A stretch of 64,000 bases of DNA. Source: Phototrophicus methaneseepsis. GTDB taxonomy: Bacteria; Chloroflexota; Anaerolineae; Aggregatilineales; Phototrophicaceae. Below are positions 1 through 14,447 of this stretch, piece after piece (position 1 is the stretch's first letter; the number at the start of each line of letters is the position of its first letter). The position numbers were made by a program, and so were the translations under genes. The DNA lies in the NCBI RefSeq assembly GCF_015500095.1, contig NZ_CP062983.1:2728001-2792000 (forward strand), written 5' to 3'. The notes under the pieces are model-generated. The model saw only the letters and a program-made list of their open reading frames with translations, did no database searches and was not told where the DNA came from.

Positions 1-219
1 CTGTGTTTTGGTACTTTCACGCTTGATATGGGCAGTTCGTATTTGCAGCGTAAGGTTAGCAGATTCAAATTATGTGCGTAATATTGTGACACTATTTTTA
101 TAGAGTTACGATGTAAAATAGATATATGCCTTTAAAATAATTATGTCGGTTATTTGTTTCTATTGTTTTATGCTTCTGCTGAACTAAATAGTCATTTTTT
201 AATCTCATCAATCAAGGCC

Positions 220-1431
220 ATGACTTTTATGCAAACCCACTATAAAACTCAGGACCTGCCGATACCGCTCGAAGCGCGTTTTCTCATAGATTGCTTGAAA
301 GTGAGCTTGCAACAAGCGGATCAAGATGTTCTGGAGACATATGCGGATGCTGCCATCGATTGGGATTATGTCCTCGAACTAACGAATGATCACTTGGTGT
401 ATCCCCTTGTCTATGAAGCCCTCAAAGACACATTCGCTGACGTGATGCCAGAAGAAATTCGCTCGCAGTATCAAGCGATCTATATGCAGAATAAGCTGCA
501 ATCGATTGTGATAATGCAAGAATTGAAGCGCATTGTGACGTTGCTGGCTGATGAAGGTATTATGGCGGTACCAGTCAAGGGGCCGCTGCTTTCCCAGGTT
601 TATCCTGAACCTTCTTTGCGCTCAGTAGGGGACCTGGATATCAGCATTGCACGTAACCAGATTGAACGTGCTGTTGATATTTTGATGGCAAATGGCTATG
701 TCAAAGCTGTCGATATGTCTGCTGGGCAGGAAAGGCTCTGGATTGAAACTAGACAGGGCTATGAACTGGATCATCCTGATTTGAATGTGTCGTTGGATAT
801 CCACTCGGATATTACCTCCGGGCGCTCACCTATCATGCTGCCTCGCAAACAGATGTTGAAATATCTGCAGGAAGTGCAGATCGACGATGTGACGATGCAT
901 GTGCCCACGTTGGAATATCTATTTTTCTTCTTGTGTATTCACGGCACCAAGCATCTGTGGATGCAGTTTAAATCGCTATGTGATTTGTCGCAGTTCTTGT
1001 TTCATTATGAGAATCGCCTGGATTGGCGCTGGATACGGAAGATGGCGCGCAGGCGTAGTGGCGAGAAGATGATTTACCTGAGCTTGTATATGTGCGAACG
1101 CATTTTTAATGCCCCTGTGCCTGCAGAGGTTCGCGCTGATTATCCTGATGAGATTATTGCTATTGGGGATCGTCTGATTGAATCGTGGTTATTTGTGCCA
1201 GGATGCACACGCTTTGAAATTACCAAGATTAAACTGACTTTGCTGGGGAATGTCATGAACCAGTTAGATTATTTCCTGCGTCTGGTATGGATCCCTCAGA
1301 AGCATAATATGCCTAATTTGCCTGAGCAAGCAGCTTATTACCCTGTCTATTATGTGATCCGGCCGTTCCAACTGGCCTGGAATATGCTCTTCAAAGAAGA
1401 GAATAAGATGTTCTCAACCTGGACCGAGTAG
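220..1431 (+). CDS. Nucleotidyltransferase-like protein of lasso-type RiPP locus
   Basis: About 403 residues. It resembles the uncharacterised nucleotidyltransferase family (PF14907 type) often found beside HprK-like kinases in paeninodin/pseudomycoidin-type lasso clusters. Seen: a VKG motif near residues 119-121, then the RSVGDLDI stretch with the paired metal-binding aspartates D138 and D140. There is no signal peptide. I chose the ATG at 220; the ATG at 229 is also possible, because the only SD-like element (AAGG near 213) is 3 nt from the first and 12 nt from the second. It converges on the ABC exporter gene with 3 nt between the stop codons. In related systems such proteins are thought to modify the phosphorylated peptide; that role here is inference. 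Confidence 0.75.
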   Translation: MTFMQTHYKTQDLPIPLEARFLIDCLKVSLQQADQDVLETYADAAIDWDYVLELTNDHLVYPLVYEALKDTFADVMPEEIRSQYQAIYMQNKLQSIVIMQELKRIVTLLADEGIMAVPVKGPLLSQVYPEPSLRSVGDLDISIARNQIERAVDILMANGYVKAVDMSAGQERLWIETRQGYELDHPDLNVSLDIHSDITSGRSPIMLPRKQMLKYLQEVQIDDVTMHVPTLEYLFFFLCIHGTKHLWMQFKSLCDLSQFLFHYENRLDWRWIRKMARRRSGEKMIYLSLYMCERIFNAPVPAEVRADYPDEIIAIGDRLIESWLFVPGCTRFEITKIKLTLLGNVMNQLDYFLRLVWIPQKHNMPNLPEQAAYYPVYYVIRPFQLAWNMLFKEENKMFSTWTE

Positions 1432-1434
1432 CGC

Positions 1435-3291
1435 TCAATTTGCTACAGAGGTGATGTAATATTGCGCTTGAGCGTTAAACATACGTGCATACTGTCCGTT
1501 GTGTGCCATGAGTGCTTCGTGTGGGCCGCTCTCAATGATGCGCCCCTGGTCCAGCACATGGATCGTATCAGCCATCTTAACGGATGAAAGCCGATGGCTG
1601 ATGAGAATGACCGTCTTCCCGGCGGTGAGTTCTCGTATTTTCTTGAAGAGCGCTTCTTCCGCGATAGCGTCAATGGCGCTGGTAGGTTCATCTAAGATGA
1701 TGATCTGGCTATCACGCAAGAAGGCCCGCGCCAGGGCGATCTTCTGCCAGTTGCCGCCGCTGGCCTCTTCGCCATCCTCAAGCCATTTACCGAGCAGCGT
1801 ATCGTAGCCATTTCGCATCTGGGTAATCATCTCATCGACCCCCGCTTTTTGAGCGGCAAGCGAAATTTGCTCAGAATCCTGGGGTAGGTTGATATTGCCG
1901 AACCAGATATTCTCCCGTGCAGTGAGATAATATTGCACAAAATCCTGGAAGATGACGCTGTAGTTTTCCCGCAGGTTTGCCAATTTGATGTTCTGGATAG
2001 GGGTGCCATCAATGCTGATTGTGCCCGACGTGGCGTCATAAAGGCGGCATAATAGCTTGACCAGCGTTGTCTTGCCGGAACCATTTTCCCCAACCAGGGC
2101 GATGACCTCGCCGGGTTTAATTGTCAGGTCGATGTTATGCAGCACGTTGGGTAAACCTGGCCCATAGGCAAAGCTAACGTCATCGAACCGGATGCCCTGT
2201 TTGATTGGCTGGGGGAGGAATCGCGGTGCAGCGCTATCAACAAGCTTGGGCTCCAGCGCGAGGAGTTCGTAAAGGTTGCTCAGGAAGAGGCTGTTTTCGT
2301 AGAGCTTTGCCAGCCCCCCCAGGAAACCGCGTAAGTAGGCTTGCCCATTCTGGAAGCCCGTATAATACATCACCAGATCGCCGACGGTTAGCAGCCCGGC
2401 CAAAGCCCGTTGAATCATGATGACAAAGGCGAAGATCAAGGCCCCTGTGGCGCTGACCTGTGCCAATAGCTCAGCGAAATAATACTGGGAAGCCATCCTG
2501 ATACGCTGCCCGCGCAACGATGACCGTAAACCATCGGATTGTTCCGTAAAGTGAGCTCCAAGCCCAAAGAGGCGGTTTTCTTTCGCATTGGCGCGGCCTG
2601 TGAGCATATCGTTGAAGTACCATGAGCGCCGTTCAATGGGGGCAACACGGCGTTTCCATCGATATTGGCGAATGGCATACCATAAGCGTGCGACGAATCC
2701 CGGCAGCGAGGCGACCACAAGGATAACAATCAACTGGCTGTACAACGAAACCAGTAGCACAGCAATCCCGACCATCGAGATGCCATTCTTCAGCATCGAG
2801 ATGAGGGCTTCAATGAGCTGCGCAGGCCGATATTCAACCTCATCCTGGGCGCGGTAAAGCATATTGAAATAATCAGGATTCTCAAAGAAGGCCAGATCAA
2901 TGCTGGCTGCTTTGGTATGCAGCAGATGATAGATGTGATCTGTGACGAGCTGCGAAAGAATATCAAAGACAAAATCTAGGGCGAGGGTAGCGAGATTATT
3001 CAATAACAACAATACGCCCAGCAGCACCACATAACGGGTGATTTCCGGGCCGATAACGGCTGCATCAATGGCGATAGGGTCCGCTGTGCCAAAGGCAACG
3101 GTGACGCTATCAAAGACTAATTTGCTGATGTACAACGCCGCCAGCGGCAAAATCGCCTGGGCAACCACAAGCACCAATGCTAAGATGAACCAGCCAGCAG
3201 CACACTCCCAGATGAGCATGACCGTATCGATAATATGCCGTGCCGCGCGGTTGATATTTTTCCGGTCAAACTTGCGTATCCACTGCTGCAT
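1435..3291 (-). CDS. ABC exporter, fused membrane and ATPase domains
   Basis: A 618-residue half-transporter: six-helix membrane domain in about residues 1-330 and an ATP-binding domain from about 370. Seen: Walker A GENGSGKT at about 401-408, a signature written ASGGNWQKIALARA (so not the usual LSGGQ) and Walker B IIILDEPTSAID. No N-terminal peptidase C39 domain is present, so leader removal must be done by the separate B1/B2 pair. It follows the HprK-like gene by 14 nt with an AGGCGG ribosome site and is probably the last gene of the minus-strand RiPP operon. Export of the mature peptide (LasD-type role) and self-immunity are inferred from context. Confidence 0.85.
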   Translation of the reverse strand: MQQWIRKFDRKNINRAARHIIDTVMLIWECAAGWFILALVLVVAQAILPLAALYISKLVFDSVTVAFGTADPIAIDAAVIGPEITRYVVLLGVLLLLNNLATLALDFVFDILSQLVTDHIYHLLHTKAASIDLAFFENPDYFNMLYRAQDEVEYRPAQLIEALISMLKNGISMVGIAVLLVSLYSQLIVILVVASLPGFVARLWYAIRQYRWKRRVAPIERRSWYFNDMLTGRANAKENRLFGLGAHFTEQSDGLRSSLRGQRIRMASQYYFAELLAQVSATGALIFAFVIMIQRALAGLLTVGDLVMYYTGFQNGQAYLRGFLGGLAKLYENSLFLSNLYELLALEPKLVDSAAPRFLPQPIKQGIRFDDVSFAYGPGLPNVLHNIDLTIKPGEVIALVGENGSGKTTLVKLLCRLYDATSGTISIDGTPIQNIKLANLRENYSVIFQDFVQYYLTARENIWFGNINLPQDSEQISLAAQKAGVDEMITQMRNGYDTLLGKWLEDGEEASGGNWQKIALARAFLRDSQIIILDEPTSAIDAIAEEALFKKIRELTAGKTVILISHRLSSVKMADTIHVLDQGRIIESGPHEALMAHNGQYARMFNAQAQYYITSVAN

Positions 3292-3305
3292 AGTTGCCGC
3301 CTGGC

Positions 3306-4217
3306 TTAGGTGTTGATGGTTGGCTCGGATGTGGTCACATCTTCTTCGATGGCACGGATCACATCAGGCATATGGTCGAGCGACCAGGGACGTTGTAACC
3401 TGCAAACGGGTACGTGCTTGATGAGTTGTGCACACTGGAAAAAATGGGATTGTGATGTGCCTGTATCATCGAGAAGGAAGACATTGTGCGAATTGTAGAC
3501 CAGTTGCATGAAGGCTTCTTGCCCGGATAAGGGCTCAACTGCAACGCTATCAGCGACACCCAGCACGTATATCCGGTGCAGGGGTACGGGTTGATCAACA
3601 AAGCCTGCTTGCAAGCGCTTGGCGCGCTTATCAATATTTGGGCTGACTTGTTCCAGTTTAGCGGCATCATCGCCAACAGCCTCTAATAAATCCGGCCAGA
3701 GCTTGAGTTGTGGGTAACCGGGCCGCAAGCGAATATTCTCCTGGTCATCTACATCAATGACGGAGAGATCATCTGCGATCAGGTCATAACCTTTGCCCTG
3801 GAGGCTGGCTGCGAGGGACGATTTCCCGTCGCCGGAGTTACCCATAATGGCGATGGCCCGTCCGTTGATTGAAATCGCACTACCATGTAGCACGAGGAAG
3901 CCGCGCTGGTGGAGAATGACGGAAATTGCAGGGCCGAGCAGCGCCAGACGTACGACGCTTTCTGGTGCGCCTTCGTCCAAATCAACAATGACTTCATCGC
4001 CATGTTGTACTAAAAAGCTGCCAATCCCTTGATAGCGGATGCAAACTTGTTCCTCAGTGACCCATAATGATTCAAAATCATCTTCTTCTAGCTCGGGCTT
4101 ATTATCAACATGACCATAATGAACGATGACATCAGGCGTGCCTGCTGCGGGTACCAGTTCGGGTAGTTCGATAATTGAATCGATGCAGAGGCCGTAAATA
4201 AGATACTTTTGTGTCAT
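3306..4217 (-). CDS. HprK-like peptide kinase
   Basis: 303 residues from the ATG at 4217. An upstream in-frame start at 4310 would add 31 residues but has poor support, whereas GGAG lies 12 nt before 4217. Similar to the HPr kinase-related proteins of lasso clusters. Seen: P-loop GNSGDGKS at residues 126-133, followed by an acidic ADDLSVIDVD stretch expected near the active site. In paeninodin clusters this kinase phosphorylates the C-terminal Ser of the precursor. The precursor here ends in Arg and its only core Ser is at core position 5, so substrate site and timing are open. It lies downstream of the precursor, past a terminator that probably lowers its expression. Confidence 0.8.
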   Translation of the reverse strand: MTQKYLIYGLCIDSIIELPELVPAAGTPDVIVHYGHVDNKPELEEDDFESLWVTEEQVCIRYQGIGSFLVQHGDEVIVDLDEGAPESVVRLALLGPAISVILHQRGFLVLHGSAISINGRAIAIMGNSGDGKSSLAASLQGKGYDLIADDLSVIDVDDQENIRLRPGYPQLKLWPDLLEAVGDDAAKLEQVSPNIDKRAKRLQAGFVDQPVPLHRIYVLGVADSVAVEPLSGQEAFMQLVYNSHNVFLLDDTGTSQSHFFQCAQLIKHVPVCRLQRPWSLDHMPDVIRAIEEDVTTSEPTINT

Positions 4218-4337
4218 AGGTCGTATGAGCTCCGAAATGAAGATGGGCAGTTCGTGTTTTAAGTTGGCATTTTGTGGGATGTGGAATAACGATAACTTTG
4301 ATGGACCCAACTTAAACGTATCTTGTAAAAAGGTCCT

Positions 4338-4376
4338 ATAAAAAGGATAGGCTTATGGTTACCCACAAGCCTATCC
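4338..4376 (-). terminator. Intrinsic terminator after RiPP precursor
   Basis: On the minus strand a 10-bp perfect stem (GGATAGGCTT with its complement, 4345-4354 and 4367-4376) is followed by TTTTTATAG. It lies 22 nt after the precursor stop and before the kinase and exporter genes, so it probably works as a leaky terminator that keeps precursor mRNA in excess. Confidence 0.8.
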
Positions 4377-4397
4377 CTTTACTGGAGTCGATGTCGA

Positions 4398-4514
4398 TTA
4401 ACGACGACCGCGACCGCGACCACGACCAGGTTGGCCGCTCATGCCAAAGTTCTGGGTCAGGGCGGTAACGTTGCCGTGTACCATCAACTTGGGTGCTTTG
4501 TATGCTTTCTTCAT
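4398..4514 (-). CDS. Lasso-type RiPP precursor with Arg-Gly core
   Basis: A 38-codon gene read directly from the minus strand: ATG at 4514, TAA at 4398, AGGAGC ribosome site 7 nt upstream. Residues 5-20 (YKAPKLMVHGNVTALT) match the lasso leader pattern YxxPxLxxxGxxxxxT exactly, including the Thr expected at position -2 from the cleavage site. Cutting after Gln21 would release the 17-residue core NFGMSGQPGRGRGRGRR. Lasso rings need Asp or Glu at core position 7, 8 or 9; here these are Gln, Pro and Gly, and the core has no acidic residue at all. It sits between the B2 peptidase and the kinase. The leader assignment is strong; the product structure is unknown. Confidence 0.82.
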   Translation of the reverse strand: MKKAYKAPKLMVHGNVTALTQNFGMSGQPGRGRGRGRR

Positions 4515-4555
4515 GGTATAGCTCCTGTAAAAAATAGATAGACATTATTGCTTAA

Positions 4556-4594
4556 CGATGCTTTTTAGAGATCTCCCAATCTGTGGAAGCATCG
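4556..4594 (-). other. Hairpin upstream of RiPP precursor
   Basis: A perfect 8-bp inverted repeat (CGATGCTT / AAGCATCG) with a 23-nt spacer lies between the B2 stop and the precursor start. It could be a processing or partial termination site; the T-run that follows on the minus strand is about 20 nt away. No convincing -35/-10 pair for the precursor was found in this 127-bp gap. Confidence 0.35.
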
Positions 4595-4641
4595 ATTAAA
4601 CACACATTCAGTCAGGCTAGCCGGATTACAGATGCTTGTGA

Positions 4642-5100
4642 TTAAGCTTTGACCATTGTGGCCGCAACTGCATCTGCCGGGAAAATCTTGTAATCTGCGA
4701 GATTTTCCAGGTAACCAAGGACGACTTCTCCTTGATATTCAACCCAGGCATGAGCCTCTAGGGCGCCCGTTTCGCTGTGCGTCACCCCAATTTTGATTGG
4801 AATAACGAGGCCGCGCCGGGCGAGCATCTGATGCATGGTGAGAGAACGTGCTAGACACTTCGATGTTGGGATTTTGCGTGATGTCAGTTCGACAACCATG
4901 GCGATGCTGTCTATGTCTTGCATAGGTATTGTCGTTTGCGCACTCGCTGACGGTGGTTCTTCCTTGACAAGGTACCTCCATGCTGTACGGAAGGGCAGGC
5001 ACTTGATCAAAATAACCACCAGCAACTGATTCAGAGCCGCTTCTATAAGAAGGAACTTCTCGGCAGGGCTTAACGCTCTGAAGGTGCGCAGCTTACTCAT
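4642..5100 (-). CDS. Lasso peptide leader peptidase B2
   Basis: 152 residues from the ATG at 5100, which overlaps the B1 stop codon (ATGA), so the two are translationally coupled. Upstream in-frame starts would run back into B1. A transglutaminase-fold cysteine protease: Cys82 in SKCLARSL and His117 in AHAWVEYQGE are the expected catalytic pair. The Asp usually found about 12 residues after the His in McjB-type proteins is Gly129 here; D136 is the nearest acidic candidate. In known systems B2 cleaves the leader after the Thr-x pair when B1 presents it. Confidence 0.85.
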   Translation of the reverse strand: MSKLRTFRALSPAEKFLLIEAALNQLLVVILIKCLPFRTAWRYLVKEEPPSASAQTTIPMQDIDSIAMVVELTSRKIPTSKCLARSLTMHQMLARRGLVIPIKIGVTHSETGALEAHAWVEYQGEVVLGYLENLADYKIFPADAVAATMVKA

Positions 5101-5375
5101 AGAACTTGAACTAACCCTGATTCTTGTAATTGCTCGAGCAGAAGGGTGAGGTCTTCCTGGCACTGTTGCTTATCGACGTCGTATTCGTTGTAAATCGTTT
5201 CTACGATATCTTCGACGCGTTGCGGTGTTTGTACCAGTTCCCAAACGCGGGCCCCCACTTCGTCCAGGCCAAAATATTTACCACTCTGGCTGTTCAGGAT
5301 AACGACATCCTGGTCAACTTCCGTCGCTACAACATGTTGACTGTTATAGACAACAGAACTTTTCAAAGTAATCAT
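5097..5375 (-). CDS. PqqD-like RiPP recognition protein B1
   Basis: 92 residues from the ATG at 5375, preceded by a strong GGAGGGGG ribosome site; an upstream in-frame start at 5453 lacks this. The sequence has the PqqD/RRE pattern: an N-terminal beta stretch, the NSQSGKYFGLDEVGARVWEL segment, then a helix pair. B1 proteins bind the YxxPxL leader motif and hand the precursor to B2. First gene of the operon B1-B2-precursor-kinase-exporter. Confidence 0.88.
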   Translation of the reverse strand: MITLKSSVVYNSQHVVATEVDQDVVILNSQSGKYFGLDEVGARVWELVQTPQRVEDIVETIYNEYDVDKQQCQEDLTLLLEQLQESGLVQVL

Positions 5376-5816
5376 TGTCCCCCTCCAGATTACTGTGTTG
5401 CAGACAAGCATCAACGAGCCTTGCCCTTTATTGACTTCATGTCTTGACTGCATGCGCTGAATAAATTTGATGCCAACAAACGTGTCTCATAATAAATGTA
5501 AGGTGCGCATGGCTTATTGAGTCTATCGTTGCATTAGCTACCTTGCACGCGCCTTACAGAACATGTCATTTACCTTGATAAATATCGACAATAGTAGGAT
5601 TTCTGACTGATTTATTAAATGTCATAACATTACACCGACAAAATCCTAATGAATTTGTAACTTCCTGGTACATGTATTTCATTTTCTTCATATACGTATG
5701 CTGCGGGATATAACGTTTCTGATGGACCCCACTATAAGGAACAAATCCAAGCAGGCTCTAGCTGAGCCTGTTTTCTGGAGGGATTGTATGTATGGATGAG
5801 CTACGGATGAGCCTGT
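5376..5816. other. Intergenic region upstream of RiPP operon
   Basis: A 441-bp gap between B1 and the araC-type gene. It is AT-rich and presumably holds the RiPP operon promoter; no near-consensus pair could be picked with confidence. A short hairpin at 5752-5774 lies at its araC side. The phrase GAGCCTGTTT occurs twice (5764 and 5809). No second precursor with a lasso leader was found on either strand. Confidence 0.5.
5752..5774. terminator. Possible terminator near araC 3' end
   Basis: Stem CAGGCTC / GAGCCTG with a 5-nt loop, followed by TTTT on the plus strand. On the minus strand, the direction of the araC-type gene, the T-run is poor, so its use as that gene's terminator is uncertain. 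Confidence 0.4.
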
Positions 5817-6659
5817 TTAGTGGGTGTTTACATGGAGACGTGTGTAAGTCTGCCGGTAAACGCCGGGTGTCATCTGTGTGTGGCGTCGGAAAATACGGCG
5901 GAAATAATCAGGGTCATTAAAGCCGCATTTCTTGGCAACTTGCCCGACAGATAGATTGGTATCTAACAGCCATTCGCAGGCTTTTTTCATACGGCGCCTG
6001 TGAATGGCCTGGGTGAGCGTAAGGCCATACTCCTGTTTATAAATACGTCCCAGGTAATCGACGTTATAGCCGATCGCTTCAGCGACGGAGCTCGCTGTGA
6101 GTGTACTATCGAAATTGATGCGTATATAGGTATGCGCTGCTGTGGCGATGACGTTTGAATCGTCATTGAGGGTGGGGCGGACTTTGGGCATCAGGCCGAC
6201 CTCAGTAAGGATGAGCATCATTAAGGTATTGGCCGTGAAGGGTTGCAGTTCGCCTGTTTCTTGGTCTTCAAGGAACATTCTAAACAATATTTCGAGTTTA
6301 TCAGGGCGATTGACACGTTTGAACTGAGGGATTTTAAGTATCGATGTATGGTTTTTTTTGGTCGTATTTTCCAGACTATGCGTCACTTCAAAATGCATCC
6401 AGAAAAAGCGCAGATCGGGCTGCATTTCCGTCAGACCACCATGCCGCCTCCCCGGCCACAAGATGAGCGTGTCTCCGGCTTCTAGATGGAAGTTCTGATT
6501 TTCTTCCCACATATCGAGCGTGCCTTGTTTAACGAATATCAATTCGTGAGAATCGATTGTGCGCGTCGGGTGGAACGCATTCCCGCGCGACATAAACAGG
6601 CCCCCATTTTGAACACGCAAAGGATCAATTAATAAGAGTTCAAGCTCTTGAGCGTCCAT
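5817..6659 (-). CDS. AraC-family transcriptional regulator
   Basis: 280 residues: an N-terminal cupin-like sugar-sensing domain (about 10-150) and a C-terminal pair of helix-turn-helix motifs (about 180-275, including SVGQVAKKCGFNDPDYFRRIFRR). Start ATG at 6659 with GGAG 9 nt upstream. Divergent from the GH127/ABC operon, so it most likely senses an arabinose-containing ligand and activates that operon. The ligand is inferred from the neighbours only. Confidence 0.88.
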   Translation of the reverse strand: MDAQELELLLIDPLRVQNGGLFMSRGNAFHPTRTIDSHELIFVKQGTLDMWEENQNFHLEAGDTLILWPGRRHGGLTEMQPDLRFFWMHFEVTHSLENTTKKNHTSILKIPQFKRVNRPDKLEILFRMFLEDQETGELQPFTANTLMMLILTEVGLMPKVRPTLNDDSNVIATAAHTYIRINFDSTLTASSVAEAIGYNVDYLGRIYKQEYGLTLTQAIHRRRMKKACEWLLDTNLSVGQVAKKCGFNDPDYFRRIFRRHTQMTPGVYRQTYTRLHVNTH

Positions 6660-6691
6660 TTTTTAGCTCCGGAAGTCGGATTTATCCTCCT

Positions 6692-6720
6692 ATTATACAA
6701 TTCTGGTGTGTTACCAACAA
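6692..6720 (-). promoter_or_regulatory. Promoter of araC-type gene
   Basis: On the minus strand TTGTTG and TATAAT are 17 bp apart. The start point would fall just before an AGGAGG, some 25-30 nt before the ATG at 6659. The 117-bp divergent region must also contain the regulator's operators. Confidence 0.65.
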
Positions 6721-6776
6721 ATCAAGTTTTGGGTACAGTCAAAGTAACTATTTTAGGTTAGCAAAAGAGTTATTGC

Positions 6777-8732
6777 ATGAAATCCCACATAAAAACCTTG
6801 CCTGCCTCCGTATACCTTGACCACATCCAATTAACTGATGGTTTCTGGAATCAGAAACAAACGTTAATTCGTAACAGGACAATTCCGGCTATCTATCATC
6901 AGCTTGATAAAACAGGCCGTTTAGCTTCCTGGGATTTGAATCCGGATCGTCAGGAACCCAAACGCCATAAAGTTATTGAGATGTTTTGGGACTCCGATAC
7001 GGGGAAATGGCTTGAAGCTGTTGGCTATAGCTTGCATACGCACCCAGATGCGGAACTCGAAAAATTGGCTGACGAACTCATCAGCCGGATGGTTAAAGCA
7101 CAGCAACCGGATGGTTACCTCAATACCTATTTTACGGTCCTGGAAAAAGACATGCGTTGGGGGAACCTGCGTGACTTCCACGAACTGTATAACGCGGGCC
7201 ATCTCATTGAAGGGGCTGTCGCTTATTACAAGGCAACGGGCAAACGCGATGTGCTCGATTTGTTAGCACGCTATGCGGATCTCATTAATGAGCGCTATGG
7301 ACCAAACGAAGGTCAGGAACGGGGCTACCCCGGCCATCCTGAGATTGAGATGGCCCTGGTCAAGCTCTATGAAGCCACTGGCGAAGAACGCTATTTAGAT
7401 CTCGCTAAATTCTTCGTTGATGAGCGTGGTCAACAAGAACCTCATTTCTTTGATCAAGAAGCGATTAGACGCGGTGAAGACCCGGATGATTATTGGGCAC
7501 AGACTTACCGTTATTGCCAGTCTCATGCCCCCTTACGCGAACAAACAGAGCCGACAGGGCACGCTGTCCGCGCAATGTACCTCTATGCTGCTGTTACGGA
7601 TCTTGCCCATGAAACGGGCGATGAAAGCCTCGCGCAGGTTGCAAAGACATTATGGCAGGACCTCGTTGCACATCAAATGTACCTGACGGGTGGGCTTGGC
7701 CCGGCACGTGCTAACGAAGGCTTCACTTTTGAATATGATTTGCCAAACGAAACCGGCTATACAGAAACTTGTGCAGCAATTGCGCTCGTCTTCTGGGCAC
7801 ACCGTATGTTCCACCTTGATCCGGATGGTCGTTATATTGATGTGCTGGAACGCTCACTTTATAACAGCGTTCTGAGCGGTATTTCGCAGCAAGGCGATGA
7901 ATACTTTTATTCCAACCCGCTCTCGTCTTACCCCAACGTAGACCCGCACGATCACTTCAGTGGCATTACTTCAGCAGAATATTATCGCCGTAAAGAATGG
8001 CTGTTGTGCCCTTGCTGCCCGCCGAACCTGGCGCGCCTGGTGTCAAGTATTGGTTCCTACTTCTATTCCACACAGGACGATAACCGCATTTACGTCCATC
8101 TTTATAACACAGGCACAGCCGATATCCCGCTCGGCGAAAAATCCGTCAAGATTGACCAGACGGCTAATTATCCCTGGGATGGTGATGTTCGCTTGAGTGT
8201 CTCTGTTGACGCTGCAACGAGCTTTGAACTGGCTTTACGTATCCCCGGCTGGTGCCGTAACTATTCTGTTAGCCTCAATGGCGAAGCTTATGACGGCCAA
8301 CCGGAAGCTGGATATATCGTTATTTCCCGCGAGTGGCAAAGTGGCGATACCATAGCCCTGACGCTCGATATGCCTGTTGAGCGTATTGGCGCAAACCCCC
8401 ATATCCGTGAAGATGCCGGGCAGGTCGCTTTACAGCGTGGCCCCCTTGTCTACTGCCTGGAAGAAGTCGATAACGGACCTCAGCTTGCAAATATCGTTCT
8501 TAAGGCGGATGCCGCCCTTGAAGCAACTGTTGATGAAGATTTATTTGGAGGTGTTCCCGTTATAAAGGGGAAGGCTGTGCGGATTGAGCCATCAACGTGG
8601 CCTGGTGGATTGTATCAACCGCAGTCTCTCGTCGATTATAAGCGTTCAGAAATTCAACTTAAGGCCATTCCGTATTACTTGTGGGCGAATCGAGAACCAG
8701 GTGAAATGCGCGTCTGGATTCGCGAAGATTAA
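6777..8732 (+). CDS. Beta-L-arabinofuranosidase, GH127 (DUF1680)
   Basis: 651 residues, close to the family length. GH127 enzymes such as HypBA1 remove beta-L-arabinofuranose using a zinc-bound cysteine nucleophile. The metal and catalytic residues are all visible: Glu330 and Cys332 in TGYTETC, and Cys411, Cys413 and Cys414 in LLCPCCPPN. There is no signal peptide, so it acts in the cytoplasm on imported oligosaccharides. First gene of a plus-strand operon with a sugar ABC importer and divergent from an AraC-type regulator. Confidence 0.9.
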   Translation: MKSHIKTLPASVYLDHIQLTDGFWNQKQTLIRNRTIPAIYHQLDKTGRLASWDLNPDRQEPKRHKVIEMFWDSDTGKWLEAVGYSLHTHPDAELEKLADELISRMVKAQQPDGYLNTYFTVLEKDMRWGNLRDFHELYNAGHLIEGAVAYYKATGKRDVLDLLARYADLINERYGPNEGQERGYPGHPEIEMALVKLYEATGEERYLDLAKFFVDERGQQEPHFFDQEAIRRGEDPDDYWAQTYRYCQSHAPLREQTEPTGHAVRAMYLYAAVTDLAHETGDESLAQVAKTLWQDLVAHQMYLTGGLGPARANEGFTFEYDLPNETGYTETCAAIALVFWAHRMFHLDPDGRYIDVLERSLYNSVLSGISQQGDEYFYSNPLSSYPNVDPHDHFSGITSAEYYRRKEWLLCPCCPPNLARLVSSIGSYFYSTQDDNRIYVHLYNTGTADIPLGEKSVKIDQTANYPWDGDVRLSVSVDAATSFELALRIPGWCRNYSVSLNGEAYDGQPEAGYIVISREWQSGDTIALTLDMPVERIGANPHIREDAGQVALQRGPLVYCLEEVDNGPQLANIVLKADAALEATVDEDLFGGVPVIKGKAVRIEPSTWPGGLYQPQSLVDYKRSEIQLKAIPYYLWANREPGEMRVWIRED

Positions 8733-8768
8733 AGTTTAAATTTCTATATTCTTTTTTTGGAGGACATC

Positions 8769-10157
8769 ATGAAGAAATTGAATATGTCTCGCCGAGACTT
8801 TTTGAAAATGATGGGCGTGTCTGGCGCTTCGCTAGCTGCATCGGCAGGTTTGGATCCTTTCCTTTTACATACACTGGCACAGGAACCGGTTCAGATCACC
8901 TTTGGTGGCTGGGGCGCTGTTGCTGAAGACGAAGGTGTGAAGGCCGCGATTGAGGTCTTCCAGGAAGAACATCCTGAGATCCAGGTTGAGTGGCAGCACA
9001 CCCCGGATGCTGGTGAATATGGGACTGTCTTGTTGACAAACCTCGCCGCTGGCACTGCCCCGGATACATCTTTCATCCTTTCAGATCAATATGAGACGCT
9101 GGCCGCAAATGGCGTCTTGATGGATATTACAGATCGCATCGCGAATGATCCCCTGTTGGGCCAGGAAAATTATTTCTTTGAGCCGCAAGAAGCTTATCGC
9201 AGCGCCGGTGGCGGTGATGGCCGTTGGTATGGCATCGGCTCTACCTGGGTGGCCCCGCAGATTTACTACAATGCCGATTTGTTTGATGAAATGGGCATTA
9301 CCCCGCCAGGGTTCCTCGATGATGAAATTTATGATTGGGATACATTCGTCGAAATTTGCAAGCAGTTGACTGTCGATACTGAGGGCCGTCACCCAGATGA
9401 TGCTGGCTTCGACTCTGAAAATATCGAACGCTATGCAGTGGATTGGAACTGGGGCTGGCAGTTCCTCGGCTCCGTCATTCACTCCAACGGCGGCCAGTAT
9501 CTGACAGATGAGCTTACATTTGCAATGGATACGCCAGAAGCCATAGAAGCTTTGCAGCGCATGGTTGACTTGATCTACGTCCATCATGTTTCTCCGCGCA
9601 GCGCGACGCTTTCTGACCTGGGTATGACCAACACCCAGATGCTGGATAGCGGTCGTCTGGCGATGGCTGTTGATGGGTCCTGGGCGCTGTCCTGGATTAA
9701 CTCCAATGAACTGGGCATTACTGTTGGGTCCGGTGCAATCCCGAAGATCGTACAGCCCGCATCCATCATGCAGGCTCACTTCCATTCAGCGCTGGCTTCA
9801 TCACAGCACCCGGACGAAGCCTGGGAATGGATTCGCTTCCTGGCGACACCTTTCTATCAGACACACTTCGCCAAAATTGGCTTATGGTTGCCGAACCAGA
9901 CCTCCATGCTGACCGAAGAAGGCCTGCAAACCTGGTTGACTGAAGGCATTCATCCAGATAATTATGCTAATTTCGTCACGGACTACCTGCCGAAGTACGG
10001 TATCGCTGTTCGTTTGCCTTCTGGCTACATCGAAGCATCAAATAACTTCATTACGCCAGCCTTCGATGCTCTGGCCGCAGGTAGTGCTGCTGCGGATGTG
10101 ATGCCGGCTGCTGTTCAGCAGGCGAATGACGTCCTTGCAATGGCTATGCAAATGTAG
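8769..10157 (+). CDS. Sugar ABC transporter substrate-binding protein
   Basis: 462 residues from the ATG at 8769 with GGAGG 5 nt upstream. The N-terminus carries a twin-arginine signal (MSRRDFLKMMG) followed by a hydrophobic segment; no lipobox Cys is seen, so it may be anchored by the uncleaved signal or released. The rest is a family 1 extracellular solute-binding fold. With the two permeases downstream it imports an oligosaccharide, probably the substrate of the GH127 enzyme. Confidence 0.9.
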   Translation: MKKLNMSRRDFLKMMGVSGASLAASAGLDPFLLHTLAQEPVQITFGGWGAVAEDEGVKAAIEVFQEEHPEIQVEWQHTPDAGEYGTVLLTNLAAGTAPDTSFILSDQYETLAANGVLMDITDRIANDPLLGQENYFFEPQEAYRSAGGGDGRWYGIGSTWVAPQIYYNADLFDEMGITPPGFLDDEIYDWDTFVEICKQLTVDTEGRHPDDAGFDSENIERYAVDWNWGWQFLGSVIHSNGGQYLTDELTFAMDTPEAIEALQRMVDLIYVHHVSPRSATLSDLGMTNTQMLDSGRLAMAVDGSWALSWINSNELGITVGSGAIPKIVQPASIMQAHFHSALASSQHPDEAWEWIRFLATPFYQTHFAKIGLWLPNQTSMLTEEGLQTWLTEGIHPDNYANFVTDYLPKYGIAVRLPSGYIEASNNFITPAFDALAAGSAAADVMPAAVQQANDVLAMAMQM

Positions 10158-10181
10158 CGTCCGCACCAACATCATAATACG

Positions 10182-10219
10182 AGGCCCTACCTTATGGCTC
10201 CTTATGTAAGGAGGGCCTT
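10182..10219 (+). other. Intercistronic hairpin after binding-protein gene
   Basis: A near-perfect inverted repeat (AGGCCCT...CCTTAT with its partner AAGGAGGGCCT) lies between the binding protein and the first permease and has no T-run. Such hairpins commonly stabilise the upstream mRNA so that binding protein is made in excess over permease. Confidence 0.6.
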
Positions 10220-10244
10220 GCCTATGGTATCTGTTTGTAGATGA

Positions 10245-11201
10245 ATGACACTTCTTATGACAACTCAAACTAGTACGAGAAAAACACCGTTTAGCTGGTT
10301 TTTTGATTGGTATAACCAACTGCCGATGGTTCGGCGACGGACCATTATTGGTTATGTCTTCATCATGCCATTTATTCTCGGTTTTATTTTATGGTTTTTA
10401 GTGCCAGCACTGGTGGCTGCAAATCTCACGTTCCAGCGTTGGAACCTGATTAGCCCGCCAACGTATGTTGGCACAGCGAATATTGAGCGACTTTTTACAG
10501 ACCCCATCCTCCCTCAATCGCTGAAGGCGACATTCCTATTTACAATTCTTTCAGTGCCAATCGGGTTGGTGTTTGCGTTTTTCCTGGCGATGTTGATTAA
10601 CACGCCGATACGCGGTATTGCTGTCTTTCGTACGATTTACTTCCTGCCGAGTATTGTCCCGGCTGTAGCCAGTGCCGTCCTTTGGGCGTGGTTGCTCAAT
10701 ACGGAATTTGGTTTGGTGAATTACTTCATCCGGGAGTTAGGCGGCCCCAAAATACCCTGGTTGCAAGACCCTGGATGGGCAATCCCGGCCTTCATCATCC
10801 TGAGTACCTGGGGTGTGGGTGGGTCGATGATTATTTTCCTCGCAGGGTTGCAGGGTATCCCAGAAGTTTACTATGAAGCGGCCAAGCTGGATGGTGCAGG
10901 GCGCTTCAGGCAGTTGTGGAATATTACGCTCCCACTGATGTCACCCATTATCTTTTTTAATCTGGTGATGGGCTTCATCAACTCGTTCCAGGTGTTTGTG
11001 AGTGCGCTGCTGATCACCAATGGTGGGCCGCAGAACGCGACCTTGTTCCTCGTCCTGTACATTTATCGTACGGCATTCCAGAGCCAGAATATGGGCTATG
11101 CGGCGACGCTCTCATGGGTCTTGTTCTTCATCTTGATGATCCTCTCGCTGATCATCTTCCGCGTTGCTGGTAGCCGTGTTTACTACGAAAACGCTGATTA
11201 G
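10245..11201 (+). CDS. Sugar ABC transporter permease 1
   Basis: 318 residues, MalF/LacF-type membrane subunit with about six helices. The EAA-type loop that contacts the ATPase is seen as [23 protein letters not shown] at about residues 209-231. Start at 10245, or 12 nt later at a second ATG; the ribosome site is weak for both. Eleven nt precede the second permease. Confidence 0.88.
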
Positions 11202-11212
11202 GGAGGGCAACC

Positions 11213-12118
11213 ATGACTGAGATAGATATGGATTCAACAATGGCTCCGCCGATTGCCGCCCCTAAGAAGTTGGAAGTGGGGCGTGCTCGTTTATCTGACA
11301 GAATCTGGCGTGGAATGACCATTTTCTTGTTGTTTTTCTTCGCCTTTGTGATGTTCGTTCCGTTTTTCTGGTTGTTGACGAGTTCGTTTAAGACGCAAAA
11401 CCAGATCTTCCAGTATCCGCCGGCATGGATCCCAGATCCTTTCGTGCCGGAAAATTACGTCAATGCGCTGACGTATAAGCCGTTCCATCTTTATCTGCGT
11501 AATTCTCTGTTTATTGCCGGGATGAACGTGCTCGCTGTGACGCTTTCGGCTTCGTTTGTGGGCTATGGTTTTGCGCGAATTCGCTTCCCAGGCCGCGATT
11601 TGTGGTTTGGCGTGGTCATGGCGACGCTCTTCCTGCCGTACGCGATTTTGATTGTGCCGAGCTTTATCATCTTCTCTCGCCTGGGGTGGGTGGATTCCTT
11701 CCTGCCGCTGATTGTGCCGCAGTTCTTCGGCGGTGGTGCGTTCAACATCTTCTTGATGCGCCAGTTCTTCCGAACGATCCCTGAAGATATTGCCGATGCA
11801 GCGCGTATGGATGGCTGTAGTGAATTTGGTGTTTATGGGCGTATCTTCCTGCCTCTGGCAAAACCTGCGCTGATCACGATTGCGATCTTCACCTTCCTAC
11901 ATGCCTGGAATGATCTGCTTGGGCCAATTATTTACCTGCGCTCACCGGAGCATTTCACCGTCGCAGCAGGTTTGGCATCTTTCCGCAGTCAGACAGACAT
12001 CAGTTGGGATTTGCAGCTTGCGGCTGCAACGGCGATGACCTTGCCTGTCATCGTGCTGTTCTTCTTCTCACAGCGTTACTTCATCCAGGGCATTGTCATG
12101 ACAGGCCTAAAGGGGTGA
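11213..12118 (+). CDS. Sugar ABC transporter permease 2
   Basis: 301 residues, MalG-type membrane subunit; start supported by GGGAGGG. The EAA loop appears as [29 protein letters not shown]. No ATPase gene follows; a terminator stands 92 nt downstream, so the importer must use an ATPase encoded elsewhere (MsmK/UgpC-type sharing). Confidence 0.88.
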
Positions 12119-12210
12119 AAAAGCCTTTTACATGTGTGCCGCCAGGTTGGGCCGCTTCGAAGCAAGAGCTGCTCAAGGTTGTTGCTTCAGTATTGTCATA
12201 AGATGTCTTT

Positions 12211-12244
12211 CAGAGGTCGGCCTAGGAGCTGGCCTCTGTTTTTG
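12211..12244 (+). terminator. Terminator of the GH127/ABC operon
   Basis: CAGAGG/CCTCTG stem with inner GGC/GC pairing, followed by TTTTT. Confidence 0.75.
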
Positions 12245-12394
12245 TCTGTCGGGTGACAATGCTATTTCAAATTTTCAATTATGAACAAGATTGACGCGTA
12301 AGTTTTGGCTATATCCACGTGTCGTAAGACGGCTGTTGTTGGCTAAAATAGGGCACGAATGGAATGGCATCAATCATTTAGAAGGATCGTTGAC

Positions 12395-13573
12395 ATGGAA
12401 CTCTATAAACGCGCCAGCGAAATTCAAGAAGACATGGTTGCGTGGCGCCGCGATATTCACATGCATCCTGAATTAGGGTTTGAAGAAAAGCGTACTGCCA
12501 ACCTCGTGGTGCAAAATCTACGAGAGATGGGTATCGAAGCAGAAGTTGGCGTGGGACGCACAGGTGTTGTCGCTCGCATCGGTGATGGCAATGGTCCTAA
12601 AGTCGGCATACGTGCGGATATGGATGCACTGCCTATTCAGGAAGCGAATGACGTGCCTTATAAGTCACAGACGCCGGGCCTGATGCACGCTTGTGGGCAT
12701 GATGCTCATACGGCTATTCTGATGGGTGTGGCGCGTATTCTTAATGATATGGCGGATCGTCCGGCGGGTGAAGTTCGCCTTCTCTTCCAGCCTAGTGAAG
12801 AAAAATGGGGCGATGATGGCATCAGCGGTGCAACCGCGATGATCCAGGATAGTGCACTGGAAGATTTAGATGCTGTGATTGCGCTGCATGTCGCCAGCGG
12901 CCAGGAATCCGGCACTGTAGAAGTCGGTGATGGCTATGTGGCCGCAGCGGTAGATTCTTTCTTCGCGACGATCAAGGGTGAGGGCACGCATGGTGCACAT
13001 CCTGATCGAGGTGTTGACCCTATCTGGATTTCTGCCCAGGTCATCAATGCGATCCAGGCGATTCGTTCCCGTCGCACAGACCCCACAACAGCTTCAGTTG
13101 TGACGATTGGTGCGATTCATGGCGGCACAGCAACCAATATTATCCCGCACGAAGTCACCTTTATGGGGACAATTCGTACTTTTGACGAAGATCTGCGTGA
13201 TCAGATCCATGAGGAATTACACCGTGCTTTCTCAGTGGCGAAGACCCTGGGTGGTGACTATGAGCTCGAAATTCAGCGAGGCTACCCGGCTATGTATAAT
13301 GCGCCGGAAGTCTCCCAATTGCTGCGGGATGTCGCTGCGGAAGCCATCGGCGAAGATAAGGTCAAAGTCGGTACGCCGATGATGGGTGCTGAAGACTTCT
13401 CTTATATGACCCAAAAAGCACCGGGCGCGATGTTCATGCTGGGTGTCAAGTATGATGATCTCAATCGGCCTCATCACAGCCCCATTTTCGATATTGATGA
13501 AAATCCCATGCAGGTTGGGGCTGCTGTCCTGGCAGAAACAGCCGTTCGTCTGCTTAAACAGCACGCGAAATAA
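12395..13573 (+). CDS. M20-family amidohydrolase
   Basis: 392 residues from the ATG at 12395 (AAGGAT 6 nt upstream). A zinc-dependent N-acyl amino acid or hippurate-type hydrolase: RRDIHMHPELGFEE start motif, metal-site motifs HACGHDAHTA and EEKWGDDG, dimerisation domain in the middle, and the C-terminal MGAEDFSYM. No signal peptide. Bounded by terminators on both sides, so it is a single-gene unit. The natural substrate cannot be told from sequence. Confidence 0.88.
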   Translation: MELYKRASEIQEDMVAWRRDIHMHPELGFEEKRTANLVVQNLREMGIEAEVGVGRTGVVARIGDGNGPKVGIRADMDALPIQEANDVPYKSQTPGLMHACGHDAHTAILMGVARILNDMADRPAGEVRLLFQPSEEKWGDDGISGATAMIQDSALEDLDAVIALHVASGQESGTVEVGDGYVAAAVDSFFATIKGEGTHGAHPDRGVDPIWISAQVINAIQAIRSRRTDPTTASVVTIGAIHGGTATNIIPHEVTFMGTIRTFDEDLRDQIHEELHRAFSVAKTLGGDYELEIQRGYPAMYNAPEVSQLLRDVAAEAIGEDKVKVGTPMMGAEDFSYMTQKAPGAMFMLGVKYDDLNRPHHSPIFDIDENPMQVGAAVLAETAVRLLKQHAK

Positions 13574-13617
13574 CATCTGAATATCTCAATCAACATTCAG
13601 ATGAAGGAAGATGAAAC

Positions 13618-13642
13618 AGAGGTCTGGAGACAGGCCTCTTTT
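13618..13642 (+). terminator. Terminator of M20 gene
   Basis: Stem AGAGGTCTG / CAGGCCTCT with a GAGA loop, followed by a short T-run. Confidence 0.7.
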
Positions 13643-13772
13643 CAATTCAGGGATGGCTTTATTTTGGAGTTGTTCTGCTATCTGGCTTCTTTTGGCGCTC
13701 ATTTGTCATCTTATAATGGCCTCCTGATTAGGATAGACTTGCAGGAAATCACATCGCACTTAGTGAGGAACT

Positions 13773-14447
13773 ATGGCTCAGTTTGATCGTCTAACCGTCT
13801 TTAATACCGTCATCGAAGATGGCATGGTGCCACTTTTTTATCACGCTGATATGGAAACCGCGCAGTCTCTAGTGGGTGCCCTGGCCGATGGGGGCAGCCG
13901 GGTGTTGGAATTCACCAATCGTGGCGAGAATGCCCTAGAAGTATTTCGTGCGCTGGTCAAATATTGCGCGCAGTTTTACCCACAGATGATTATCGGCATT
14001 GGTTCCGTTGATGATGCCCCGACTGCCGCATTGTTTTTAGCTTATGGGGCGAACTTCATCGTAGGGCCAACGTTTAACCCTGAAGTGGCACGGCTTTGTA
14101 ACCGCCGCAAGGTGGCTTATATGCCGGGCTGTGGCACTCTGAACGAAATTGCCAATGCAGAAGAATATGGCGCGGAGATCGTCAAGTTGTTCCCAGGGAA
14201 TGCAGCAGGTGGGGCTGATTTCGTCAAAAGTGTCTTGGCCCCTCGGCCATGGAGCCGCATTATGCCTACAGGTGGCGTCACACCGGAAGAAGATAATCTC
14301 CGTCAGTGGTTTTCCGCTGGTGTGACGTGTGTCGGTATGGGTAGCAAACTCGTCCGCCAGGATTGGATTGCTGCAGGCAATTATGCGGCTATCACTGAAC
14401 TGACACGTTCAACGCTCGCTTTGATCCGTCAGTTGCGCGCTGAGTGA
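13773..14447 (+). CDS. KDPG/KHG-type aldolase
   Basis: 224 residues, class I aldolase of the 2-keto-3-deoxy-6-phosphogluconate / 4-hydroxy-2-oxoglutarate family. The Schiff-base lysine lies in IVKLFPGN, and the phosphate-binding MPTGGVTPEEDN loop follows. It splits a keto-deoxy sugar acid phosphate into pyruvate and an aldehyde. No dehydratase or kinase partner is adjacent, so the pathway is not fixed. Confidence 0.88.
   Translation: MAQFDRLTVFNTVIEDGMVPLFYHADMETAQSLVGALADGGSRVLEFTNRGENALEVFRALVKYCAQFYPQMIIGIGSVDDAPTAALFLAYGANFIVGPTFNPEVARLCNRRKVAYMPGCGTLNEIANAEEYGAEIVKLFPGNAAGGADFVKSVLAPRPWSRIMPTGGVTPEEDNLRQWFSAGVTCVGMGSKLVRQDWIAAGNYAAITELTRSTLALIRQLRAE

Follow-up and report, generated by a model that had tools for sequence, protein, structure and literature searches.

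The window, a stretch of 64,000 nucleotides from the genome of Phototrophicus methaneseepsis (Chloroflexota; contig NZ_CP062983.1, positions 2,728,001 to 2,792,000), carries genes for a lasso-type precursor peptide, a discrete RRE protein (B1), a leader peptidase (B2), an HprK-like kinase, an MsbA-like ABC exporter and an uncharacterised nucleotidyltransferase (Table 1). B1, which resembles TbiB1 (PDB 5v1u; 61 bits), and B2, whose catalytic residues Cys82 and His117 are retained in the 152-aa translation, both look intact at the sequence level, and the whole genome (G000) holds one copy of each. The best NCBIfam model for the exporter is MsbA (281 bits, under the model cut-off of 602), and the nucleotidyltransferase gene is inverted with respect to the rest of the cluster. 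No modifying enzyme besides the kinase and the nucleotidyltransferase was recognised in the cluster. The adjoining region (window 5817-12118) encodes an AraC-type regulator; inspection by eye suggests a glycoside-hydrolase-like gene and a sugar ABC-transporter operon as well, and all of these are probably unrelated.

Table 1. Features of the cyclase-less cluster, in window coordinates.
Feature	Position	Strand	Remarks
Uncharacterised nucleotidyltransferase, NTP_transf_5 (PF14907)	220..1431	+	182.5 bits; start codon hand-read
MsbA-like ABC exporter	1435..3291	-	Walker A and B motifs retained
HprK-like kinase	3306..4217	-	P-loop GNSGDGKS, His and Asp-Asp motif retained
18-bp hairpin, 3' arm ending in U's	4341..4380	-	between precursor and kinase gene; position hand-counted
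Precursor peptide	4398..4514	-	ATG start, 38 aa; leader MKKAYKAPKLMVHGNVTALTQ and predicted core NFGMSGQPGRGRGRGRR
B2-precursor gap, 127 nt	4515..4641	-	place of the cyclase gene in most related clusters
Ribosome-binding site AGGAG	4522..4526	-	7 nt upstream of precursor ATG; position hand-counted
B2 leader peptidase, Transglut_core3	4642..5100	-	NF033537 74.6 bits, cut-off 33
B1, discrete RRE / PqqD-like protein	5097..5375	-	NF033536 80.7 bits, cut-off 80

The 38-aa precursor frame proposed by the first-pass annotation is exact, lying on the minus strand and opening with ATG, and the lasso leader motif ascribed to it, YxxPxLxxxGxxxxxT, is present with its T at position -2. The precursor matches the NCBIfam model NF033528 (lasso_cyano) at 45.3 bits (E 6.2e-12; cut-off 33), a score above cut-off which argues that the frame did not arise by chance; since the alignment spans residues 1-28, the match is mostly to the leader. 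The predicted core NFGMSGQPGRGRGRGRR has 17 residues with neither Asp nor Glu, Ser5 is its sole hydroxyl residue, and Gln7, Pro8 and Gly9 stand where a lasso peptide has its acceptor acid, as had been read earlier; its arginines number five, not the six first counted. The hairpin 3' of the precursor stop codon (-33.4 kcal/mol, z -7.2 in the computed fold) was not among the results of a terminator scan with its own stem and loop rules, and looks terminator- or attenuator-like from its sequence.

No remnant of a cyclase was found in the gap between B2 and the precursor, and tblastn searches with five cyclase queries, including two divergent ones, gave no match in window positions 1-14000, in the sequence L004, which reaches 16 kb upstream, or in any of the nine cyclase-less loci described below. 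The genome, a single contig of 5.63 Mb that is 95.7% complete, yielded only two Asn-synthetase genes in a PF00733 search, both starting MCG and so having Cys2. The 30 cluster cyclases compared and that of locus L079 begin MSG or MSA, and the divergent cyclases of L146 and L054 have other N-termini. As a rule of thumb, Cys2, the Cys of a working glutaminase, marks ordinary AsnB, and by this residue both genes look like ordinary AsnB. PF00733 detects divergent cyclases (L146 at 36.7, L142 at 46.1 and L054 at 101.4 bits, against a cut-off of 21), and should therefore have seen one in this genome; a cyclase acting in trans finds no support there, the only Asn synthetases being of the MCG type. Among the features by which lasso peptides are recognised here, leader, B1 and B2 are thus present, and the cyclase and the acid at core positions 7-9 are lacking.

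In a sample of 400 genomes from the phylum, 31 had B2, as did 9 of 98 from the family, a genus mate (G457) being without it; B2 relatives were found in no phage and in two plasmids. A contig scan for relatives gave 110 matches, of which the best 80 were kept, mostly from Cyanobacteria. Among relatives the usual gene order is B1-B2-cyclase-precursor(s)-kinase-ABC exporter, in many with a nucleotidyltransferase added, and the window follows this order except that it has no cyclase and that its nucleotidyltransferase gene is inverted. L079, a cluster from the same genome family that does have a cyclase, is ordered nucleotidyltransferase-ABC exporter-kinase-precursor-methyltransferase-cyclase-B2-B1, and its core (QMVTGDMGD...) has D6 and D9. 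Its methyltransferase (L079 5879-7051), between precursor and cyclase, matches PRMT_C, the arginine-methyltransferase C-terminal domain.

The comparison genomes are nearly all drafts. Among 140 annotated B2-bearing loci, 27 had no cyclase match: nine were used, L287 duplicates L103, and L142 and L146, each of which proved to have a divergent cyclase, were reassigned to the cyclase-bearing class. The other 15 were omitted for having no recognised precursor (L055, L058, L059, L061, L064, L082, L083, L085, L087, L088, L089, L116, L117, L121 and L135), and the genomes of L089 and L116 have cyclase-like genes elsewhere. The nine loci with B2 and a leader-bearing precursor are the window, L143 and L256 (Chloroflexota), L103 and L120 (Cyanobacteria), L164 (Sumerlaeota), and L283, L273 and L286, which come from the order to which L120's genome belongs. 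All nine have the kinase and the nucleotidyltransferase, seven the exporter and eight B1. The kinase is present in 88 and the nucleotidyltransferase in 52 of 91 cyclase-bearing loci (nucleotidyltransferase difference, p 0.011), a class comprising L142, L146 and any fetched locus with an Asn-synthetase profile match, set without one-by-one inspection of N-termini, so that an AsnB neighbour could count. A kinase-profile search for further cyclase-less kin matched 41 of 376 genomes of the class, and among 30 loci viewed with 1.5 kb per side, one of them (L343) interrupted by a contig end, none was clear besides the window.

With a cluster cyclase as query, the best matches by E-value in genomes G000, G496, G497, G499, G644, G912 and G991 were 28-33% identical and their readable N-termini were MCG, several further matches without a readable N-terminus or locus lying outside this result; G500, the genome of L164, gave no match at all. 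The G644 assembly comprises 90 contigs and is reported as 100% complete. For L273 a cyclase acting in trans is conceivable, given the single true cyclase that G1047, its genome, encodes at a different lasso locus. Asn-synthetase-like proteins of a second type occur in G912, G991, G496 and G1047, and in G912, the one genome viewed, the gene adjoins by eye decarboxylase- and acyl-CoA-dehydrogenase-like frames. L143 begins inside B2 at a contig end, so that B1 and anything upstream are unseen and an upstream cyclase is excluded only by the search of its draft genome. A 276-residue frame in L143, the one weak match of a five-cyclase profile in a cyclase-less locus (16.8 bits), was rejected as a cyclase: Pfam classes it as mpaB/rubber-oxygenase-like (52.6 bits) and not as an Asn synthetase.

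Precursors were collected with a leader profile (262 matches, 210 of at least 15 bits, 195 after an exact-motif/masking filter, 175 after merging of identical sequences and 154 in B2 loci). Beside a cyclase (139 precursors), Asp or Glu stands at core positions 7-9 in 127, at 6-12 in 10 more and at neither in 2 (L054 and L094), as against 4 with such an acid at 7-9 and 11 with none at 6-12 among the 15 precursors of the nine cyclase-less loci, the window's included; nine of these 15 cores have Asp or Glu somewhere, the window's own having none. The cyclase-less cores with an acid at 7-9 belong to L164 (D8), L103 (E9, one of two precursors) and L283 (D9, two of three distinct precursors). Thus 137/139 precursors beside a cyclase vs 4/15 without one have an acid at core 6-12 (Fisher 5e-12, kinship ignored), or, counted per locus, 89/91 vs 3/9 (Fisher 1.9e-6, again ignoring kinship). 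A core net charge of at least +4 is found in 4/9 cyclase-less loci vs 1/91 others (p 1.5e-4, kinship likewise ignored). The exporter and kinase trees offer three to four independent pairs on supported branches, too few for the association of an absent cyclase with an absent acid to reach 0.05; with kinship taken into account, this association is not significant. For the acid, the exporter tree has no opposing pair and the kinase tree has few; for charge, some such pairs do occur on the exporter tree.

The window's exporter is the sister of the L143 exporter (50% identity), and its kinase that of the L143 kinase (45% identity), each with an SH-aLRT of 99, although the long end branches of the window and the quick tree method leave this placement not beyond doubt. 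The cyclase-less state requires four changes on the exporter tree (at least three on starred branches) and six on the kinase tree (at least four). The core of L143, KPGKGKGNAYGLSCGNGNVFGPSSCGNGVPARDDHGRGRGKR, whose precursor start was hand-read as GTG after GGGGAGG, has no acid at positions 6-12. Basic tails end the cores of the window (RGRGRGRR), L143 (GRGRGKR), L256 (RGRKKKKK) and L283 ((RGG)9 to (RGG)12). L283 (7784-15544) encodes four precursors with three distinct cores, two distinct precursors reading GINARPPVD and the third QGPVD, each then continuing VSSGMPP(RGG)n; the Asp stands at no fixed place, which speaks against a ring-acceptor role. The tails of 9 to 12 RGG repeats show synonymous codon variation in the one checked, and the kinase and exporter genes are separated by a fatty-acid-hydroxylase-like gene. 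QVGGSGGF- or AVGGSGGF-type cores characterise L120 (4604-13642), L273 (3540-11748) and L286 (3279-12932), which each encode two glycosyltransferases, one of group 1 and one of family 2, so that their products are perhaps glycosylated linear peptides. A locus of Latescibacterota, L094 (7712-10799), has two cyclase-like genes, but its precursors carry no acid in the usual position and have tails of the RRRRARRW or RRRRTTR type.

A conserved Ser near the core start was rejected as a distinguishing kinase site, Ser or Thr at core positions 1-6 being found in 11/15 cyclase-less and 97/139 cyclase-bearing precursors, with no enrichment in the former. The kinase P-loop is retained in 9/9 cyclase-less vs 71/87 cyclase-bearing loci, which is not a significant difference (p 0.35). 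In 16 of these 87 (L130, L137, L147 and others) it departs from GxxGxGK[ST], reading for instance ADSGFGKS.

Cyanobacterial-type lasso clusters (lasso_cyano; e.g., L130 and L137) resemble the window in their leader and in the order and presence of B1, B2, kinase and exporter, but have a cyclase, mostly between B2 and precursor, and an acid at core 7-9 (as in 127 of the 139 precursors of all cyclase-bearing loci); L130 and L137 have no nucleotidyltransferase. The kinase is likened to those of paeninodin, pseudomycoidin and Bsf, which act on the precursor before leader removal (PMC9266682 and PMC10368454). BsfK, sped up by BsfB1, phosphorylates core Ser3 at that stage (PMC10368454), and a nucleotidyltransferase homologue goes with hexoses on phosphoserine in pseudomycoidin (PMC9266682). 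The pseudomycoidin and Bsf clusters, like the window, have a nucleotidyltransferase; unlike the window, all three clusters have a cyclase, and the phosphate is on the C-terminal Ser, or on Ser3 in Bsf. The lasso cluster reported in PMC9332814 likewise retains its cyclase.

Linear polyphosphorylated peptides (LPPs; Popov et al., May 2026; PMC13381572) are presented as linear analogues of phosphorylated lasso peptides, restricted to Bacillota, with a SipW-like signal peptidase as leader peptidase, the leader motif YxxPxVLxHQxIxFETxxS, and a kinase, LppK, that phosphorylates core Ser3, where polyphosphate is carried. LPP clusters share with the window a discrete RRE, an HprK-like kinase, an NTP transferase, an MsbA-like exporter, a Tyr-type leader motif and the lack of a cyclase; the window differs in its lasso B2, its classic lasso leader with T at -2 and its Arg/Gly-rich core, and the B2-bearing form is found in Chloroflexota and Cyanobacteria. 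The window leader YKAPKLMVHGNVTALTQ does not fit the LPP motif and, by eye, no signal peptidase was recognised among the frames of the window and L004, B2 being present instead. The LPPs are a precedent for a lasso-like system that has no cyclase; searches limited to open-licence papers turned up neither a cyclase-less form with B2, in Chloroflexota or Cyanobacteria, nor RG/RGG cores.

The genes are present with their motifs kept, no cyclase was found and the acceptor acid is absent. These observations suggest that the cluster probably derives from a lasso RiPP system, operates with no macrocyclisation step and yields a linear, cationic, Gly/Arg-rich product. A linear product, one of three options put forward by the first-pass annotation, is favoured because no lasso cyclase is found in cluster or genome and because 11 of 15 cyclase-less precursors have no acid at core 6-12; the other two options, a different ring chemistry and deamidation of Gln7, find no support. 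A true lasso or other lactam closed by such means, whether on a deamidated Gln7 or by an unrelated ligase or a cyclase encoded elsewhere, is very unlikely: the leader is fully canonical and Gln7 sits at the place of an acceptor, but no cyclase-type Asn synthetase was found in the genome, no further modifying enzyme was recognised in the cluster, and not one of the 14 remaining cyclase-less cores has Gln7. It had also been proposed that homologues with an acid at core 7-9 might reveal a sequencing error or variant here. Such homologues exist among the cyclase-bearing relatives (the 127 of 139 above), without implying an error in the window, since the cyclase gene is absent as well and L143, a sister cluster, is likewise cyclase-less.

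That the window instead holds a decaying lasso cluster, in which deletion of the cyclase gene was followed by drift of core Asp9 to Gly, so that it yields nothing useful, is unlikely. The GGT codon is one transition from GAT, the core NFGMSGQPG resembles the xFGxxGxxD of the cyclase-bearing Nostocaceae-type clusters L104, L130, L137 and L147, the genus mate lacks B2, and the nucleotidyltransferase gene is inverted; but the core likeness is short and absent from L143, the remaining genes are open with catalytic motifs retained, and a ribosome-binding site and a strong hairpin flank the precursor. The sister cluster, merely 45-50% identical, also shows no cyclase, so the state looks old while the genes are still intact. 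It is quite improbable, too, that the peptide is never freed and that kinase and nucleotidyltransferase attach it to phosphate-sugar carriers, for the cell surface or a polymer. This would accord with the presence of both enzymes in all nine cyclase-less loci, with the paired glycosyltransferases of L120, L273 and L286, with the frequent location of LPPs in capsule loci (PMC13381572), and with family-2 glycosyltransferase-like (L004 9949-10950) and sugar aminotransferase-like (L004 7946-9097) frames seen by eye some 5-8 kb upstream of the window start; no glycosyltransferase, however, was seen by eye in the frame lists directly beside the cluster.

For the linear product preferred here, we infer that the core would be cleaved from its leader, possibly phosphorylated, and exported with no closure of any kind. 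B1 would bind the YxxPxL leader, and the HprK-like kinase, aided by B1, may phosphorylate the core, with Ser5 as a guess at the site by analogy with Bsf and LppK. The nucleotidyltransferase may then add to the Ser5 phosphate, B2 would cleave the leader after TQ, and the ABC exporter would release the linear Gly/Arg-rich peptide. Speculatively, membranes, polyanions or nucleic acids could be what cationic RG peptides of this kind bind.

Since lasso clusters are usually identified by way of their cyclase, a branch without one is easily overlooked. It is possible, though we hold it only tentatively, that the cyclase was shed several times in Chloroflexota and Cyanobacteria, giving rise to linear peptides with one Arg-Gly or polybasic group, and that the chemistry of kinase and nucleotidyltransferase, rather than the knot, is the conserved purpose of these clusters. 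If true, this would be a second route, besides that of the LPPs, from lasso peptides to linear modified peptides, and these clusters would offer naturally occurring systems in which leader cleavage, kinase and nucleotidyltransferase persist without a ring, allowing the roles of the enzymes to be tested apart from knot formation.
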